DNA of 55,825 nucleotides from Bacteroidetes bacterium CG12_big_fil_rev_8_21_14_0_65_60_17. Its GTDB lineage: Bacteria; Bacteroidota; Rhodothermia; Rhodothermales; UBA10348. Below are positions 25,801 to 33,610 of the stretch, in pieces. The stretch is taken from the NCBI GenBank assembly GCA_002787815.1, contig PCUY01000018.1, forward strand, positions 1 to 55,825, in the 5' to 3' direction. Position 1 is the stretch's first letter, and the number at the start of each line of letters is the position of its first letter. The notes beneath the pieces are model-generated. The model saw only the letters and a program-made list of their open reading frames with translations. It was not told the origin of the DNA and did not search any database. Made by a program: the position numbers and the translations under genes.

Positions 25801-26820
25801 ACAAGCGGCACGCTCGAGGATGGATCCGAGAGCCGACAGCCACGCTCGCTGATTTACCTGCCCCTGACTACACAGGACCGCGTCCTTGGCGTCATCACCG
25901 TCCAGAGTTTTGAGAAGAATGCCTACACGGAAGACGACCTGAACCTGCTTAAGACCATGGCCGCCTATGCGTCTGTAGCACTCGACAACGCAAATGCCTA
26001 CCGGCAGCTGAACACGACCTTGGAAGAGCTCAGACAGACCCAACAGCAGCTGGTCCAGCAGGAAAAAATGGCGTCTCTCGGACAACTAACGGCAGGAATA
26101 GCGCACGAAATCAAGAATCCGCTCAACTTTGTGACCAATTTCGCCGACGTGAATGCGGAACTGGCTTCGGAACTGCGCGAACTCATTGATACCCATCGCG
26201 GTGAGCGTCTGGCCACCATCCGCGCCGAAATCGAGGATCTGGTGTCCGGGTTGCAACTCAATGCCAGACAGATTTCCAAGCACGGAAAACGTGCCGATTC
26301 CATTGTGCGGGGCATGATGGAGCATGCCCGCCAGGGCGATTCGGAGCGCTTTGACGTCTCCATCAACGGCTTTGTCGAGGAGTATGTGAACCTGGCCTGG
26401 CACGGCTACCGTGCCCGCTTCCAGGACCTGCAGGCTTCCGTCAACACGGACTACGGAAAAGGCGTCGAAAATGCGCGTATTTCGCCCCAGGACATGGGGC
26501 GCGTATTGATCAATCTCATGGGAAACGCGCTTGACGTCGTACGACCGCTTGAAGATGGCGTCCTTACCGTCTCAACACGACGTGTCGGCGAGCAGGTGGA
26601 AATCCGGGTCTCAGACAACGGGCCAGGCGTTCCAGAACATATCCGGAGCCGCATATTCGAGCCCTTCTTCACCACCAAACCGACAGGCGAAGGAACGGGC
26701 CTCGGGTTGAGCATGTCCCACGAGATCGTTACCCAAGGCCATGGCGGTACGTTGACGCTCGAAGATACGCCAGGAGGCGGCGCTACGTTCGTCGTCACAC
26801 TTCCAGCCACTCACTCCTGA
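22816..26820 (+). CDS. Beta-propeller sensor histidine kinase (Reg_prop/Y_Y_Y/GAF)
   Basis: A 1334-residue membrane kinase. A signal peptide near residues 15-40 is followed by about twelve propeller strands' worth of repeats such as GFLWFGTQSGLHRYD and GTIWVASDGGLSRMD to about residue 700, a Y_Y_Y domain (YDDRWIEAG..ASYTNLPPGDYTLRVKA), one transmembrane helix at about 830-851, a coiled coil, a GAF domain (about 905-1057), a HisKA domain with His1097 in GIAHEIKNPLNF, and HATPase with NLMGNALDVV, DNGPGV and GTGLGLS. It lacks a receiver and HTH, unlike gut hybrid systems. Start: ATG 22816 is taken over an earlier TTG. Its end overlaps the convergent gene at 26811 by 10 bp. Confidence 0.9.
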   Translation: MYAPTHACATHRRAMRMVLSGLFAAALLTLSTRATLAQVDTPPDLPSINVAEAPSIRMDNMDLTDGIGQGTIYQITQDRKGFLWFGTQSGLHRYDGHEFKIFEPVAFDTTSIQSGWVWGVDESSDGSIWASTNAGLSRLDPERGNFENFTHDPSDSTSLASGFTFASLEASDGTIWVASDGGLSRMDAARTGTFKRFDRAEGDSTALPGPAFFLREGPDGFIWVSTADGLARVDPSSNHVRTYYSTGRLQGPSAPQAVLGSAADARDPYVLWYGTGRGIMRFDIRTAERRIWVPYPDEPSFSELNVVLTVTRDPLADDILWLGTSGGGLLRFDATTGEFDVYNHDPEDPHSVASPMANTVFADRAGTVWVGYGNKGLGKFNPTSVSITHIRHDPGNTGGPLAEGSIWGMLEADGYLWTGNYTNAGKSVLTRYSLSTGVTRRMEADLDAPLTFWPGIVQSLMVSESGQLWVGTAGVSTCNPASFICRRLPRSREDSTRIHPSSVHALFEAPDEPGVIWIGNFGGLHRYDTRTGAVRRYEAPTLDPALQLIPAHIVLGSDGALWISTLGSGLSRFDRNTELFEHYPYDVRDTTTVANNHIEVVLERASEPGILWLGSMGGLDRFNMKTRRVERHFNEQAGLANNHIYGMLEDNDGRLWISSNRGISMFDPDAGTFRNYGTEDGLRELEFMQNAYTKGSGGMLYFGDVSGITAFVPDRLTTNGIVPPVAFTALRVDGQPTELVSALDIPFRSNSFSADFVALHFTNPTRNTFAYRLEGYDDRWIEAGTQRTASYTNLPPGDYTLRVKAANSDGVWNEEGITMDVTIRPPWYRTLWGYLFFATLMVGTIAGGARFQQARVVQRERTRSEIKEIGLRAEAAESEAKALQAENARRKNIERLSEIGKEITSSLDFETIFGQLYAHVNDLTEAPVFGVGIYREEDHVLDYRMAIEDGKRYAPYTRDMRDTNQFPVWCITHRKPVFINDVEAEYTTYIDSLEMTSGTLEDGSESRQPRSLIYLPLTTQDRVLGVITVQSFEKNAYTEDDLNLLKTMAAYASVALDNANAYRQLNTTLEELRQTQQQLVQQEKMASLGQLTAGIAHEIKNPLNFVTNFADVNAELASELRELIDTHRGERLATIRAEIEDLVSGLQLNARQISKHGKRADSIVRGMMEHARQGDSERFDVSINGFVEEYVNLAWHGYRARFQDLQASVNTDYGKGVENARISPQDMGRVLINLMGNALDVVRPLEDGVLTVSTRRVGEQVEIRVSDNGPGVPEHIRSRIFEPFFTTKPTGEGTGLGLSMSHEIVTQGHGGTLTLEDTPGGGATFVVTLPATHS

Positions 26821-27269
26821 CGACGGCTGAACCCTTCCCGGATGGCCTCGGCGGACTGTATGCGTGGGTAGACGGCGCTTACCAGCACTCCGGTTCCGGC
26901 TGTCATGAGTACCATGCCCAGCGGCCGGACCATGCCGACCAGGAAGCCGGCACCCACTCCTCCCGCGATGAGGGGAGCTACCGCAACCACCATAACACCC
27001 ACATTGAGCACGGACGCCGCCGCAAGCAGCACAGTGCGACCCGGTCCGGGACGGCGGCGACTTTTCGGCAGGATCCAAAGCGCCACCCCGAGAGCCAGTT
27101 GGATCATGAATCCGCCCAGCATGATCCAGGCGTGCGAGCCGCGCAGCATCCAGATGCCACTCCCCACCCAACCCCCGGTGCGTTCCACGAGTATGGCAAC
27201 TCCGAGCAGAACGCCGGCCATGAACCACAGGAGGGAGCATCGCACCAGAAAAACACTGTGCTGTGGCAT
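26811..27269 (-). CDS. Small four-helix membrane protein of the nirK group
   Basis: A 152-residue protein with four predicted membrane helices. The second holds SHAWIMLGGFMIQLALGVALWILP, which resembles the H-x(n)-G-W/F-x-x-Q-L-x-x-G-V-A-x-W-x-x-P pattern of the neighbouring 27303-27674 protein and, loosely, of heme-copper oxidase subunit I helices. The two are probably paralogues. A heme-binding or assembly role in nitrite/NO respiration is inference from position and the shared His. It is third in the reverse-strand group nirK-27303-26811, after 33 bp. Confidence 0.65.
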   Translation of the reverse strand: MPQHSVFLVRCSLLWFMAGVLLGVAILVERTGGWVGSGIWMLRGSHAWIMLGGFMIQLALGVALWILPKSRRRPGPGRTVLLAAASVLNVGVMVVAVAPLIAGGVGAGFLVGMVRPLGMVLMTAGTGVLVSAVYPRIQSAEAIREGFSRRQE

Positions 27270-27302: not shown

Positions 27303-27674
27303 TTATTTGCGGGTTTTGACGCGGGTCCAGAAGTAGACGACAAGGAGCAGCGCGGCCGTTCCCTGGAGCGCAGACGACGCGAGCAGCAGGCTTCCCCACG
27401 CCTCCACATGGGCACGCGGCTCAGCCGGAATGCGGAGCAGGAGCCCCGCATTGAGCAGCCCCCAGGCCGCGCCCACCAACCGGAAATTCCCGTACGGTGC
27501 CTCCTTCGAGTGACGTGGAAAAAGCCAGTAGGCTACGCCGAAAATGAGCTGCGTCAGCCAACCGACCGTGAGCACGTGAAACACGGCCGGATGCGAGGAA
27601 AAAGCGCCCATGGCCAGACCTGCGAACAGATGGACCAGCGCCGTCTTGATGTAGAGCCGACTCAGCAGTGGCAT
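27303..27674 (-). CDS. Small four-helix membrane protein with HCO-like motif
   Basis: A 123-residue protein beginning MPLLSRLYIKTALVHLF, with four hydrophobic segments. HPAVFHVLTVGWLTQLIFGVAYWLFPRH in helix two resembles an isolated helix pair of heme-copper oxidase subunit I, with two or three candidate heme-ligand His. Proteins of this sort occur beside NO reductase genes in related bacteria; that is from memory and unverified. It starts 17 bp after the nirK stop, and its start codon touches the copy of the dispersed repeat at 27674. Confidence 0.65.
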   Translation of the reverse strand: MPLLSRLYIKTALVHLFAGLAMGAFSSHPAVFHVLTVGWLTQLIFGVAYWLFPRHSKEAPYGNFRLVGAAWGLLNAGLLLRIPAEPRAHVEAWGSLLLASSALQGTAALLLVVYFWTRVKTRK

Positions 27675-27694
27675 GGTTTTTCAACAGCCTTTTA
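27674..27694. repeat. Solo end of the inverted-repeat element at the nirK stop
   Basis: TGGTTTTTCAACAGCCTTTTA at this site matches the inner-to-outer end of the 387-499 element (TGGTT-TTCAACAGCCTTTTA type) almost perfectly, and no second end is within reach. On the reverse strand it supplies the nirK stop codon (TAA at 27694-27692) and the gap to the next gene. Confidence 0.6.
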
Positions 27695-29089
27695 GTGCTT
27701 GCTACGGACCTTCGTCACGTCCACAGGACTGATTTCGGGGCCGTTATTACCCCAGGAATTCAGAACGTACGTCACGACAGCAGCGACTTCGGCGTCTGAA
27801 AGACGCACCGCCGGCATGACACCGTTGTAGGTCTCGCCGTTGACGAGAATCTCGCCCGAACGTCCGTGCACCACGATGTCCACAGCCCGCAGCGGATCGG
27901 CCAGCAGGTAATCCGAGCCGGCGAGCGGAGGGAATGCGCCGGGTAATCCCTGACCCTGAGGTTGGTGACAGGCGGCGCAGTTCGACGTGTATATACGTTC
28001 CCCCGCCACCATGGGGTCTTCGATCTCTTCATTGGATGTTTCTGTCGCTGGCACGTCCTGGATTCCACCACCCTCCGGCAGGTATACGCTCTCTTCCAGC
28101 AGACCGGAATACACGGCTTTGTTTTCTTCTCCCTCTACGACAAGGTTGGCAAGGGCGCCCTTGTTGAACGCACGGAAAATGGCGTGGTCCACGAGAATGA
28201 GATTGGCGGGTACCTCCACGTCAAACTCCACAATGGCTGCACCTCCCGCCGGAACGAGCGTCGTCTGAACGTTCTCCTGGGTCACGAGCGTTCCGCCCTC
28301 CTGGTGGACCCGATCGAATATTTCCCCGATCACATGAAACGATGACACAAGGTTCGGCCCACCATTGCCAACGAAGAGGCGCACGGTCTCTCCAACGTGG
28401 GCCGCGAGCGCACGCTCACCCGTGAGCGACCCGACAGCACCATTGAAAACGACATAGTCGGCATCTTCCTCAATGGCCTTCTCCATGTCGAATGGCTGCA
28501 GCCCGGGGTCGCCATAATTGCCCTTCGTATAGAATTCGCTCTGCATCACGTAGTACTCCCTGTCCACGGGCGGCAAACCTGCCTTCGGTTCGACCAGGAT
28601 GAGGCCATACATACCATTGGCAATGTGCATACCAACGGGAGCTGTCGCACAGTGATACACATATAGTCCCGGATTCATGGCCGTGAACGAAAACGTGGAT
28701 CCCTTGCCAGGTGCCGTGAACGACGCAGCCGCACCGCCACCGGGCCCCGTAACCGCATGCAGGTCAATATTGTGCGGCATCTTGCTCGTCGGGTGGTTGT
28801 TCAGGTGAAATTCGACGACATCACCCTCACGCACACGGATGAATGACCCCGGTACCTCGCCACCGAAGGTCCAGAATTCGTACTCGACCCCATCCGCCAA
28901 GCGTCCCTTTTTCTCCACGGTCTCCAGTTCCACGACCACTTTTGTCGGATGTTTACGCGTAATCGGAGGCGGAACATGTGGTGCAGCGGTCAAAACTGCT
29001 TTTTCTTCGCCCTGGATGGCATAGGACGTACAACTGAAATTGAGCACGGAGGCCAGGACGATGACGAGGGTTGGAACGAAAGGGCGCAT
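27692..29089 (-). CDS. nirK: Copper nitrite reductase fused to cytochrome c
   Basis: A 465-residue periplasmic enzyme reducing nitrite to NO. A lipoprotein-like signal (LASVLNFSC) precedes two cupredoxin domains. Type 1 and 2 copper ligands are visible: HNIDLHAV (His, catalytic Asp, His), VYHCAT (His, Cys), [10 protein letters not shown] (His, Met) and, in domain 2, [11 protein letters not shown] (catalytic His) and [13 protein letters not shown] (His). A C-terminal cytochrome c domain has CAACH and a likely axial Met in NGVMPAV. Fusion lets a donor feed electrons directly to copper. It is divergent from the NO reductase genes across 169 bp and heads a group with two small membrane proteins. 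Confidence 0.93.
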
Positions 29090-29401: not shown

Positions 29402-29941
29402 ATGAGTTCACCCATTCACTCTCCCCAGGGCAACTGGTGGATTGCCGGCGTATCGGTACTTGAAAAAACGTGGATCCGCATCAGCGTCGTGTGGTGCCTC
29501 CTCCTGTTTGCGTCCATGATCGTGTGGGCATCCTACGGTAAGCAGAATCAGGCAGGCCCGACATACCGGGTATCCACAACCGAGTTCATGCAGAAGGTGC
29601 AGGCCTTCAAGAAGGCTGGTACACAGACCGAAGACGGCATTATTCCTGCCGACGAACACATATATGTTGCAGCGGCCCGGTTTTCGTTTGACGGATTTCC
29701 TGTCGTACTCCAAGCCGGAAAGCAATACCAGGTGCATATGAGCAGCTATGATGTCCAACACGGACTCTCGGTCAGGCCCGAGCATGCGCTCAGCAAGCAG
29801 ATGTCACTGCAACTTCTGCCCGGTTACGAATGGGTACTGCCCATGAAGTTCGATGAACCGGGAGTCTATCACGTGGTCTGCAATGAGTTCTGTGGCGTCG
29901 GCCACCGGACCATGCATGGCTCTTTCATTGTGCGGAGGTAA
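29402..29941 (+). CDS. CuA subunit II of a B-family heme-copper (NO) reductase
   Basis: A 179-residue protein with one N-terminal helix (residues about 24-43, RISVVWCLLLFASMIVW) and a periplasmic cupredoxin. The CuA site is complete: His in YDVQHGLS, then CNEFCGVGHRTM with two Cys, the bridging Glu carbonyl, His and Met. It takes electrons from a soluble donor and passes them to subunit I. The start at 29402 follows the 46-residue gene; a frame from 29357 would overlap it. Subunit I begins three bases after the stop. Confidence 0.88.
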   Translation: MSSPIHSPQGNWWIAGVSVLEKTWIRISVVWCLLLFASMIVWASYGKQNQAGPTYRVSTTEFMQKVQAFKKAGTQTEDGIIPADEHIYVAAARFSFDGFPVVLQAGKQYQVHMSSYDVQHGLSVRPEHALSKQMSLQLLPGYEWVLPMKFDEPGVYHVVCNEFCGVGHRTMHGSFIVRR

Positions 29942-29944
29942 CCC

Positions 29945-31651
29945 ATGATCAAGGAACTGTTTACCAACGACTACGGACCTGACGGCTTTCGCACGTGCTC
30001 CGTGACGGGCATGCGCATTGACCGCACGGCAGAAAACTTCGTCAAGGTATTCGGCCTGACGGCCGTGGTTGCACTCGTAGTGGGTGGTATCTCCGCCATC
30101 CTCGTTGTGCTGACCCGCTGGGAAGTCGTCGGCCTGCTCGGTCCTGCCGATTTCTACAACTGGCTGAGCGTACACGCATGGAATCTGCTCATTTTCTGGA
30201 TGGTCTTCATGGAAGTAGCCATTCTGTATGTGGGCGGGCCCATGGTACTCGGGCGCAAGCTGCCGGCGCCTAAACTGGCCATGGTCGGGTACGTCCTCAT
30301 GCTGGGTGCGGCCATTGGCATCAACTGGGCCCTCATGACGACGTCGGCCCCGGATCATGCACCGGTCCTGACGTCCTATGCCCCACTGCCTTCTTCGGAG
30401 TGGTTTTACCTCGGCGCCATCGTCTTCATTCTGGGAACGGTGATTGCTGCACTGCCCTTCTTTGCCGCCATCTGGCAGGAGAAGGTGGAAAACCCGAACA
30501 GGAGCCTGCCACTCGTCGCATTTGGCGCCTTCATCACGGCCATCATCGCCGTCGAGGCGTTGCTGGGTGGTTTGATCACCTACATTCCAACCTACATGTG
30601 GCGGATCGGTCTACTCGAGCATATCGATGCGGCCTGGTACCGCCAGATGTACTGGATCGTTGGACACGGAAGCCAGCAGATCAACCTGGCGGCCATGATT
30701 ACGGTGTGGTACTTCCTGACCCATGTGGTCGGGGGCGCGGAGGTCGTGAGCGAAAAAGTCTCCCGATCCGCTTTCATACTGTACCTCTTCTTCATCAACA
30801 TGGGCGCTGCCCACCACCTCATGGCCGATCCGGCACTCGCCGCGAGCTGGAAGGTCTGGAACACGTCTTACGCCGCCTACGGCGCCGTTCTCGCCAGCAT
30901 GATCCACGCCTTCGCCATCCCGGCGGGCCTGGAGGCCGGACGCCGCAAGCGGGGCGCCGGGAAGAGCCTCTTCGGATGGTTATGGTCATCGCCCTGGAGC
31001 AACCCCGTGTTCTCGGCCGTCATCTTCTCCATCATTCTGTTCGGCTTCATGGGAGGCATTACGGGCGTACTGATGGGACAGATGCAGCTCAACCTGGCGT
31101 GGCACAACACGTGGGCTACCGTGGGCCACTTCCACGCCACGGTCGTACTCGGAACCACGATGACGTTCATGGGGCTCGTGTTTTTCGTGATACAGACCAT
31201 GTTCAGGAAAGAACTCATCATGGCACCGCTCGCGAAGATCCAGCCCTGGTTCTATTCCGGTTTCATGGCGCTTACGACGCTCATGATGATGTATCTCGGC
31301 ATCCTCTACGGCATTCCACGGCGCCATGCGTCGGTCATGAATATCCCGGGGACGGACTTCAATTTCGCTGCCGCCGAGCCACTCTTCGTGGTATTCGGCA
31401 TTGCTGCACTGCTGGCCATTGCCGGTGGCATCCTGTTTGCGCTGATTTCGGTAGGCTCGCTGCTTTTCGGCAACAGACTCGATCCATCGACCGTGTTCAG
31501 GCCGACGCATTCCTGGCAGGGTGACGGGAGCCCGGTCCACCTGCAGTCCATGCGTGGCACGTTCGCGTTCACGCTCATTTTCCTGGCCGTATTCGTGATT
31601 GCCTATGTCCTGAACTGGTACCTGTTGTCACGACTCTGGGAGATCGGATAG
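29945..31651 (+). CDS. Catalytic subunit I of a B-family NO reductase
   Basis: A 568-residue, about 13-helix heme-copper protein. All six metal His are present: His77 (low-spin heme, helix II), His241 (WIVGHGSQQ), His290-His291 (GAAHHLMADP) for CuB, and His395/His397 (GHFHATV) for the two hemes. In ba3 oxidases the residue four after the first CuB His is the cross-linked catalytic Tyr; here it is Gln245. Loss of that Tyr marks NO reductases derived from oxidases. Pairing with nirK supports this. Similar enzymes (called eNOR) are reported from Rhodothermus, as I recall. O2 reduction is unlikely but not excluded. Confidence 0.85.
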   Translation: MIKELFTNDYGPDGFRTCSVTGMRIDRTAENFVKVFGLTAVVALVVGGISAILVVLTRWEVVGLLGPADFYNWLSVHAWNLLIFWMVFMEVAILYVGGPMVLGRKLPAPKLAMVGYVLMLGAAIGINWALMTTSAPDHAPVLTSYAPLPSSEWFYLGAIVFILGTVIAALPFFAAIWQEKVENPNRSLPLVAFGAFITAIIAVEALLGGLITYIPTYMWRIGLLEHIDAAWYRQMYWIVGHGSQQINLAAMITVWYFLTHVVGGAEVVSEKVSRSAFILYLFFINMGAAHHLMADPALAASWKVWNTSYAAYGAVLASMIHAFAIPAGLEAGRRKRGAGKSLFGWLWSSPWSNPVFSAVIFSIILFGFMGGITGVLMGQMQLNLAWHNTWATVGHFHATVVLGTTMTFMGLVFFVIQTMFRKELIMAPLAKIQPWFYSGFMALTTLMMMYLGILYGIPRRHASVMNIPGTDFNFAAAEPLFVVFGIAALLAIAGGILFALISVGSLLFGNRLDPSTVFRPTHSWQGDGSPVHLQSMRGTFAFTLIFLAVFVIAYVLNWYLLSRLWEIG

Positions 31652-31658
31652 ATACATC

Positions 31659-32459
31659 ATGACGTTCATTGAGCAGTCAAGACGAGCTGAACAGGCCATT
31701 CCGGGGCCGGGACCCAGGCCGCGCCAACGGCCCGGGCCGCGTCAACAGCCCAGGCCGCGCCAACGGCCCGGGCCGCGCAAAGAGCACGGTCCCCTGAAGG
31801 CCCTGTGGCTGGCCTACAAGGCAATCTATTATGCGAGCACACCGTCGTGGCGGTTCATGAAGAGCGGTGCCCTCTTCCTGTTCGGGTTTTTCTGCTGGTC
31901 GGCCGGTAATCTCCTGCTCTCCTATGAACCGTCCTGGACGTGGGTACAGTTCATTGCATCGTACGGCTTTCTCGTCATCATATGGGGACCCGTTACGCAT
32001 CTGATACTCGTCCCCATCGTGACGCCCTACATGCGACGGTGCTTCCATTCCAATCCCGGGAAGTGGCTTGCAAAACACCTCTCGCTCGTGAACTTCCTGG
32101 TCTTCATGGTGCATGTCATTCTGTTCGGACTGTATCCACCCGACCATGTGCTCTTCGAGTTCGGTACCATCGCGCGGGAGAACCCGGCCGTGGATGTGAA
32201 TCCGACCCTCACGTGCAACCGGGACCGGGATGCTGCCCGGCTGACGTGCACAGTAAGGCCGGCAGACGGGATTGGGCGATTGAATATAGAGACGGCCGGC
32301 GAGCCTATCCGGCGCCTCGACGAGGCGCCGTGGACGTTCACACTGCAGGAGCAGCAGCTGGCGAGGGTTGTCGGACAACAACAGTTCGAAGTCCTGGTCA
32401 TGACACCGGATGGTGACGTGATACGCAGTTTCACCAAGTACGTGGCGACGATACCCTGA
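31659..32459 (+). CDS. NOR-cluster membrane protein with Pro/Arg repeats
   Basis: A 266-residue protein. Residues about 18-42 are made of four six-residue units (PRPRQR, PGPRQQ, PRPRQR, PGPRKE) coded by a tandem DNA repeat. Three membrane helices follow (about 66-88, 90-118, 140-160), including ASYGFLVIIWGPVTHLIL, then an about 90-residue periplasmic beta domain with a probable disulfide (LTCNRD, RLTCTV). Not recognised. Its place between subunit I (seven bases upstream) and the next membrane gene (TGATG overlap) makes it a probable NOR accessory or assembly factor. Confidence 0.75.
   Translation: MTFIEQSRRAEQAIPGPGPRPRQRPGPRQQPRPRQRPGPRKEHGPLKALWLAYKAIYYASTPSWRFMKSGALFLFGFFCWSAGNLLLSYEPSWTWVQFIASYGFLVIIWGPVTHLILVPIVTPYMRRCFHSNPGKWLAKHLSLVNFLVFMVHVILFGLYPPDHVLFEFGTIARENPAVDVNPTLTCNRDRDAARLTCTVRPADGIGRLNIETAGEPIRRLDEAPWTFTLQEQQLARVVGQQQFEVLVMTPDGDVIRSFTKYVATIP
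31713..31784 (+). repeat. Four tandem 18-bp units inside the accessory gene
   Basis: The units at 31713-31730, 31731-31748, 31749-31766 and 31767-31784 alternate between CCCAGGCCGCGCCAACGG and CCCGGGCCGCGTCAACAG types; the last ends in GCAAAGAG. Each unit encodes six residues rich in Pro and Arg, so copy-number changes would keep the reading frame. Confidence 0.85.
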
Positions 32460-33610
32460 TGAACACCGTTGAAAAACGCGTCTGGACGGGCTCTCTCGCG
32501 TGTTTCATCCTGGCCGCCGGAACCGGGTTCTTCTTCCGGGGCATCCAGTTCCTGGGCATTCCAGCGGAGTTCCCATGGCCGCATGGTGCCATTCCGCTCG
32601 ATATGGGTCACATACGGCATGCGCATACCCACGTCATGTATTTCGGGTGGGTAACGCCCGTGGTCATGCTGCTCATGCTGCCTGATCCATCGCGCTACCG
32701 CGGGCTGCTCACCACGTTACTGGTGCTGGCCCTGCTGGCCTGGGCCCCTTTCCTGCTGCTGGGCTACAAACCACTCTCGATCGTACTCTCGACATCGACC
32801 ATGCTGACATGGTATGTGTTCGGTATCCGCTACATGTGGGACCGACGCCGGGGTTCTATCCCGCTCGACGGCAGATGCGTCCGTCACCTCTTCGACGCCT
32901 CACTCGCGCTGCTCGTTGTGGCGTCGACCGGTGCCTGGGGCCTGGGATTGACCATGGCCATGGGGATGGACCACTCGCTGGCGTATGACCTTTCGCTTCA
33001 CGTCTTTCTGGATCTGTTTGCTGAAGGATGGCTCATGCTGGCCATTCTGGCCGCCATGCTCCGCTCCGCTCGGCGCGCCGTTCCGAGGCGGGCCTTCTGG
33101 ATGCTCGTCGCGGGCATCCCGACCCTTTTCCTGCTGGGGGTCGTGCCCGAACGCCTGCCGTGGGAGATGCGCCTGGTTGGAAGCGCCGGAGCGCTCATGA
33201 CGGCTGCCGGGCTGCTGCTCGTGCTGCTGGAGGTGCGGGGGCGACTCGGCCAGGTGTGGCGCCTTCCCGTAGCACTCATGTATGTCAACGCAGGTGTCCA
33301 TGCAGGCCTTGCCATTCCCGCCGTCGCCTCTTGGGGCATGGCGATGGGCCTCCGTATTCCGTGGCTTCACCTCGTTCTGCTCGGGATTGTCACGACGGGG
33401 CTCGTGGCGGCAGTCCACGATCATTTCGGAAGCCGCTACACACGCGGCTGGCCCATGCTCCAGGCCTCGATCGTACTCGTACTCGCGAGTCTCTTCCTGC
33501 TTACAGGACTCTGGCCCGGGAGCCTGGTTGGAGAATGGACCGGTCCCCTCGTTGCCGGGATTGCCCTGCTTCCGATGGCGGCCATGGTACGTATGTTCAC
33601 CGCCACCTGA
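32459..33610 (+). CDS. Polytopic membrane protein with His cluster, NOR operon
   Basis: A 383-residue protein with about ten to twelve helices. Near the N-terminus it carries a His-rich stretch, H42, H51, H54, H56 and H58 (GHIRHAHTHVMYFGW), and later LSLHVFLDLFAEGW and VHAGLAIP. The H-T-H-V-M-x-F-G-W pattern resembles the small proteins at 26811 and 27303 and a heme-copper oxidase-like helix. Heme or copper binding is a fair guess; NnrS-like function is possible but the known NnrS motifs are not evident. It begins by a TGATG overlap and is 18 bp ahead of hemN. Confidence 0.7.
   Translation: MNTVEKRVWTGSLACFILAAGTGFFFRGIQFLGIPAEFPWPHGAIPLDMGHIRHAHTHVMYFGWVTPVVMLLMLPDPSRYRGLLTTLLVLALLAWAPFLLLGYKPLSIVLSTSTMLTWYVFGIRYMWDRRRGSIPLDGRCVRHLFDASLALLVVASTGAWGLGLTMAMGMDHSLAYDLSLHVFLDLFAEGWLMLAILAAMLRSARRAVPRRAFWMLVAGIPTLFLLGVVPERLPWEMRLVGSAGALMTAAGLLLVLLEVRGRLGQVWRLPVALMYVNAGVHAGLAIPAVASWGMAMGLRIPWLHLVLLGIVTTGLVAAVHDHFGSRYTRGWPMLQASIVLVLASLFLLTGLWPGSLVGEWTGPLVAGIALLPMAAMVRMFTAT

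Follow-up and report, generated by a model that had tools for sequence, protein, structure and literature searches.

The window examined here (the whole stretch of 55,825 nucleotides of contig PCUY01000018.1) very probably codes, in the gene pair at 29402-29941 and 29945-31651, for an eNOR of two subunits. An eNOR is a nitric oxide reductase with its origin among B-family (ba3-type) oxygen reductases, and such enzymes serve denitrification in bacteria and halophilic archaea. The present reading is based on features observed directly, namely the residues, their conservation, the fold class, the CuA site and the gene context, and we infer that the enzyme reduces NO to N2O. As a member of the known eNOR family, the Gln-for-Tyr enzyme is already explained and is not a new enzyme; beyond the published summary of eNOR, the present analysis adds only further active-site details and a third gene. 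The features of the catalytic gene are as follows.

29945-31651, plus strand: eNOR subunit I (catalytic heme-copper subunit), 568 amino acids, ATG start, intact frame
30173-30175, plus strand: H77, low-spin heme ligand (family alignment)
30212-30214, plus strand: E90, helix II, invariant in the family and non-acidic in ba3-type oxidases
30662-30685, plus strand: G240 to N247 of the active-site motif W237-I-V-G240-H241-G-S-Q244-Q245-I-N247 (translation and family alignment)
30665-30667, plus strand: H241, first CuB ligand, codon CAC
30674-30676, plus strand: Q244, codon CAG, in place of ba3 V236
30677-30679, plus strand: Q245, codon CAG, in place of the cross-linked Tyr, four residues past H241
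30710-30712, plus strand: Y256, equivalent to the K-channel residue Y248 of ba3, kept in 104/104 family members and 19/19 ba3-type oxidases
30794-30796, plus strand: I284, site of the cbb3-type helix VII active-site Tyr (Tyr in 0/104 family members)
30812-30817, plus strand: H290 and H291, second and third CuB ligands (104/104 in the family alignment)
30896-30907, plus strand: K-channel positions S318 (ba3 S309, kept) and H321 (ba3 T312, His family-wide)
31127-31135, plus strand: H395 (high-spin heme ligand) and H397 (low-spin heme ligand), from the Thermus ba3 match and the family alignment

The original prediction held that the active-site tyrosine is replaced by Gln245 within an otherwise complete histidine cluster. 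Both parts are confirmed: residues 240-245 read G-H-G-S-Q-Q, with Q245 opposite ba3 Y237, and all six metal-ligand histidines (H77, H241, H290, H291, H395 and H397) are present. Subunit I matches PF00115 in a Pfam search (E 4e-52), and its best NCBIfam match is CtaD/CoxA. A structure-guided comparison with the Thermus ba3 enzyme had been proposed, and sequence alignment with that enzyme (E about 1e-35) sets H241 on H233 and Q245 on the cross-linked tyrosine, Y237, in the generally used ba3 numbering. An AlphaFold2 model of subunit I has a mean pLDDT of 85; among the 50 fold matches listed for it, the nearest solved folds are ba3 oxidases (TM 0.77) and no eNOR-named structure appears.

The NOR subfamily was expected to depend on the precise replacement, and it does, because eNOR is recognised in the literature by Gln at the active-site tyrosine position (PMC8756737, section 2.7.1 and Table A4). 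eNOR is one of four biochemically characterised NOR families and is related to B-family oxidases (PMC11388526); it is known from Chloroflexi, haloarchaea and Proteobacteria, its cupredoxin subunit II is encoded immediately upstream, a single proton channel is predicted, and its members are easily misannotated as cytochrome c oxidase (PMC8756737). Such misannotation hides NO-reducing, N2O-forming capacity. The window enzyme shares with the eNORs of Rhodothermus, haloarchaea, Anaerolineales and Gemmatimonadota the Gln at the tyrosine position, the six histidines, the upstream CuA subunit II, the B-family fold and the tree position, and differs in belonging to the haloarchaeal/Rhodothermia branch, which has an extra third gene. 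The characterised eNOR is presumably that of R. marinus. Relative to the ba3-type oxidase of Thermus thermophilus, the fold, ligands, CuA and equivalents of Y248, S309 and subunit II E15 are the same, whereas Y237 is replaced by Q245, V236 by Q244, W239 by N247, T312 by H321 and Y244 by Ile or Val, and E90 is added.

The hallmarks of the other heme-copper families are likewise replaced. Four residues past the first CuB histidine (H+4), the cross-linked tyrosine of B-family (ba3) oxidases is Q245; in cbb3 (C-family) oxidases the tyrosine lies on helix VII, six residues ahead of the HH pair (HH-6), and the residue here is I284. In cNOR and qNOR the H+4 residue is Glu and electrons enter through cytochrome c or quinol (PMC8756737, text and Table A4), in contrast to the Gln and the CuA subunit of the window enzyme. 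The B-family-related NORs sNOR and bNOR (CuANOR) have Asn at the tyrosine position (PMC8756737, Table A4), where the window enzyme has Q245; bNOR shares the use of CuA, going by its name.

A complete CuA subunit II is encoded directly upstream of subunit I, and its conservation was counted over 81 sequences.

29402-29941, plus strand: eNOR subunit II, one transmembrane helix and a CuA cupredoxin domain (PDB matches 7deg_B, ba3 subunit II)
29759-29761, plus strand: H120, CuA ligand (81/81)
29879-29914, plus strand: CuA motif C160-N-E-F-C164-G-V-G-H168-R-T-M171 (C160, E162, C164, H168 and M171 each 81/81)

In addition, E21 of this subunit aligns with E15 of ba3 subunit II, the entry of the K-channel, and is found in 80 of the 81 sequences.

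Conservation in subunit I was assessed in a family alignment of 104 sequences, which includes the window copy and a few near-duplicates, against 19 ba3-type oxidases of the same taxonomic class, some of them from genomes that also carry eNOR. Q244, Q245 and N247 are each present in 104/104 family members, and 19/19 oxidases have V, Y and W at these positions, so the Gln at the tyrosine position is not a matter of chance. A motif rule of H-x-x-Q-Q-x-N versus H-x-x-V-Y-x-W therefore parts eNOR from ba3-type oxidases cleanly in this bacterial class. Gln-type and Tyr-type enzymes occur together in several genomes (e.g., G170, G203, G073, G064 and G076). On the tree, the Gln-bearing sequences group apart from B-family oxidases (SH-aLRT 100) and the Tyr/Gln state changes once; judged from these sequences, the Tyr-to-Gln change is ancestral.

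That the motif might be a sequencing error or belong to a decaying pseudogene can be dismissed with near certainty. The motif is common to 104 sequences and the frame is intact, which rejects sequencing error, and comparison of the subunit I gene with a congener copy gives dN 0.042, dS 0.85 and dN/dS 0.05, a sign of strong purifying selection and thus of a gene that is not decaying. Together with the intact ligands, the ratio bears out the view that the replacement is a specific functional change. Among relatives of subunit I, the otherwise conserved H387 (the His of an H-N-T motif) is Val in four sequences and Gln in one, and the heme ligand position H397 is Lys in one.

A separate question is whether a tyrosine elsewhere has taken the place beside the CuB histidines, as the original prediction allowed. 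A relocated cbb3-type tyrosine can be rejected: the HH-6 site is Ile in 104/104 family members, and the cbb3 oxidase of the window genome itself (L083) has Tyr there. Tyr 145, 155 and 256 of subunit I are not substitutes, because they are also found in Tyr-bearing oxidases. Tyr309 and Tyr312 of helix VIII are invariant in the eNOR family and absent from ba3-type oxidases, and a one-residue indel relative to ba3 makes their register ambiguous. From the alignments, a substitute tyrosine thus appears mostly but not completely excluded, with helices VI (H+4) and VII (HH-6) clear throughout the family and helix VIII less so. Alternatively, the enzyme might still be mainly an O2 reductase despite the loss of its tyrosine, working either through Y309 or Y312 or with no tyrosine at all. 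The B-family fold, the predicted K-type channel, the retained CuA, and the two family-specific tyrosines would suit such an enzyme; however, Gln is a published NOR signature (PMC8756737), the family is reported as a NO reductase (PMC11388526), the known alternative tyrosine position is Ile, the subunit I gene lies in a nirK cluster, and the genome already has two Tyr-bearing oxidases. We therefore regard O2 reduction as the main activity as very unlikely, and prefer the eNOR reading.

The original prediction also proposed looking for conserved second-shell carboxylates near CuB. Comparison of the 104 eNORs with the 19 oxidases gave no family-specific acid on helices VI-VIII resembling the second Glu of cNOR, and the Glu-based cNOR design is therefore not used. 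On helix II, E90 is present in 104/104 family members and the position is acidic in 0/19 ba3-type oxidases, which makes E90 a candidate for a role in the second shell or in proton transfer. D295 and E330 show full or almost full conservation in the family, but they are found in oxidases as well. By alignment, the K-channel equivalents Y256, S318 and subunit II E21 are kept, and ba3 T312 is His (H321) in every member; this predicted K-type route agrees with the one proton channel predicted for eNOR (PMC8756737).

The probable mechanism can be outlined as follows. Electrons would pass from CuA in subunit II to the low-spin heme (H77/H397) and on to the high-spin heme (H395), which faces CuB; at CuB (H241, H290 and H291), 2 NO, 2 electrons and 2 protons would yield N2O and H2O. 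Reduction of NO to N2O is the reaction of cNOR and qNOR and is expected here as well. O-O splitting takes an additional electron and proton from the tyrosine; NO reduction needs neither, and the oxidase tyrosine would thus be dispensable. Q245 with Q244 and N247 could form a polar, non-redox pocket that hydrogen-bonds to NO or hyponitrite and to proton-delivery water; the roles given to Q244, Q245 and E90 are proposed ones. Protons would probably be drawn from the cytoplasm along the predicted K-type route, through subunit II E21, H321, S318 and Y256 to Q245. An implication of such a route is that eNOR may be electrogenic. More generally, the requirements of a heme-copper centre for NO chemistry, as opposed to O2 chemistry, can be studied in the eNOR family.

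The genomic context is that of denitrification, with a nitrite reductase gene divergent from the adjoining eNOR genes.

27692-29089, minus strand: nirK, copper nitrite reductase fused to a cytochrome c domain at its C-terminus (TIGR02376, 358 bits, cut-off 296; PF00034)

NirK is the probable source of NO for eNOR, and NosZ is encoded elsewhere in the genome; a search with the narG model gave no match in the genome. Of the two remaining heme-copper genes, one has the tyrosine typical of an A-type oxidase and one that of a cbb3 oxidase. No further candidate for a heme-copper NOR was found in the genome, which is 95.5% complete, so that a missed gene is possible; the gene content fits nitrite-to-N2 denitrification in which eNOR is the one NOR of the heme-copper superfamily so far identified. 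Downstream lie the heme genes hemN, protoporphyrinogen oxidase and ferrochelatase. The likely role of eNOR is thus the step from 2 NO to N2O within nitrite-to-N2 denitrification. The protein might instead serve to detoxify or sense NO, given that, with narG unmatched, nitrite may be the sole source of the NO load; the complete CuA electron-entry subunit, the adjoining nirK and the presence of nosZ fit respiration, and we consider a non-respiratory function very unlikely. Downstream of nirK, on the minus strand, 26811-27269 and 27303-27674 encode two small hydrophobic proteins, which weakly match different parts of the COX1 model; both recur near eNOR or nirK at other loci (L004, L063 and L068).

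The eNOR of the window has its closest relatives in congeners (93% identity in subunit I), followed by a Salinivenus MAG (76%), Rhodothermus sp. (71-72%), haloarchaea (61-69%) and the general bacterial type (41-47%). Other genera of the same bacterial family have the distant eNOR type (42-43% identical), whereas the window genus has the haloarchaeal-like type; the presence of two eNOR lineages within one bacterial family makes transfer likely. A quick tree suggested that the haloarchaea are nested within bacterial lines. In a more careful tree the bacterial rows fell on one side with support of 38/61, and haloarchaea as one clade had a p-AU of 0.47, with neither grouping rejected; given these values we make no claim as to the direction of transfer between Rhodothermia and haloarchaea. 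Among the loci compared, L002 and L003 (contig JAJCYR010000091.1, 233570 bp) are identical over 17.7 kb and lie at mirror positions, so the contig resembles a perfect palindrome; the doubling probably arose as an artefact of assembly rather than by true duplication.

The branch to which the window copy belongs is also marked by a further gene directly after subunit I.

31659-32459, plus strand: third gene, conserved in this eNOR branch; its product is a membrane protein of about 3 transmembrane helices plus an Ig/FN3-like beta domain

This gene lies 3′ of subunit I in 43 of the 44 haloarchaeal/Rhodothermia-branch loci that have enough downstream sequence, and a profile search did not find it beside the other eNOR branch, one marginal match excepted. 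The product has invariant cysteines (C186 and C197) in its Ig/FN3-like domain and belongs to no Pfam or NCBIfam family, and in a fold search the beta domain matched nothing more specific than generic Ig/FN3-like folds. From its linkage, the protein may be a third subunit or an assembly factor. We raise, tentatively and with some doubt, the idea that eNOR of this branch has three components, the third being a disulfide-bonded Ig-like protein, and that its proton route is rewired via H321 and E90 to the Gln-Gln-Asn site. In the window copy the N-terminus of the third protein is a low-complexity segment rich in Pro, Arg and Gln (RPGPRQQPRPRQ).

The next open reading frame (32459-33610, plus strand) encodes a His-rich hydrophobic protein of 383 amino acids with no Pfam or NCBIfam match, and bears no similarity to the heme-copper family of eNOR, of which it can be rejected as a relative. 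Of 245 genomes from the class, 72 have this protein, including many that lack eNOR, and its motif GHIRHAHTHVMYFGW points to a membrane protein that binds a metal or heme.
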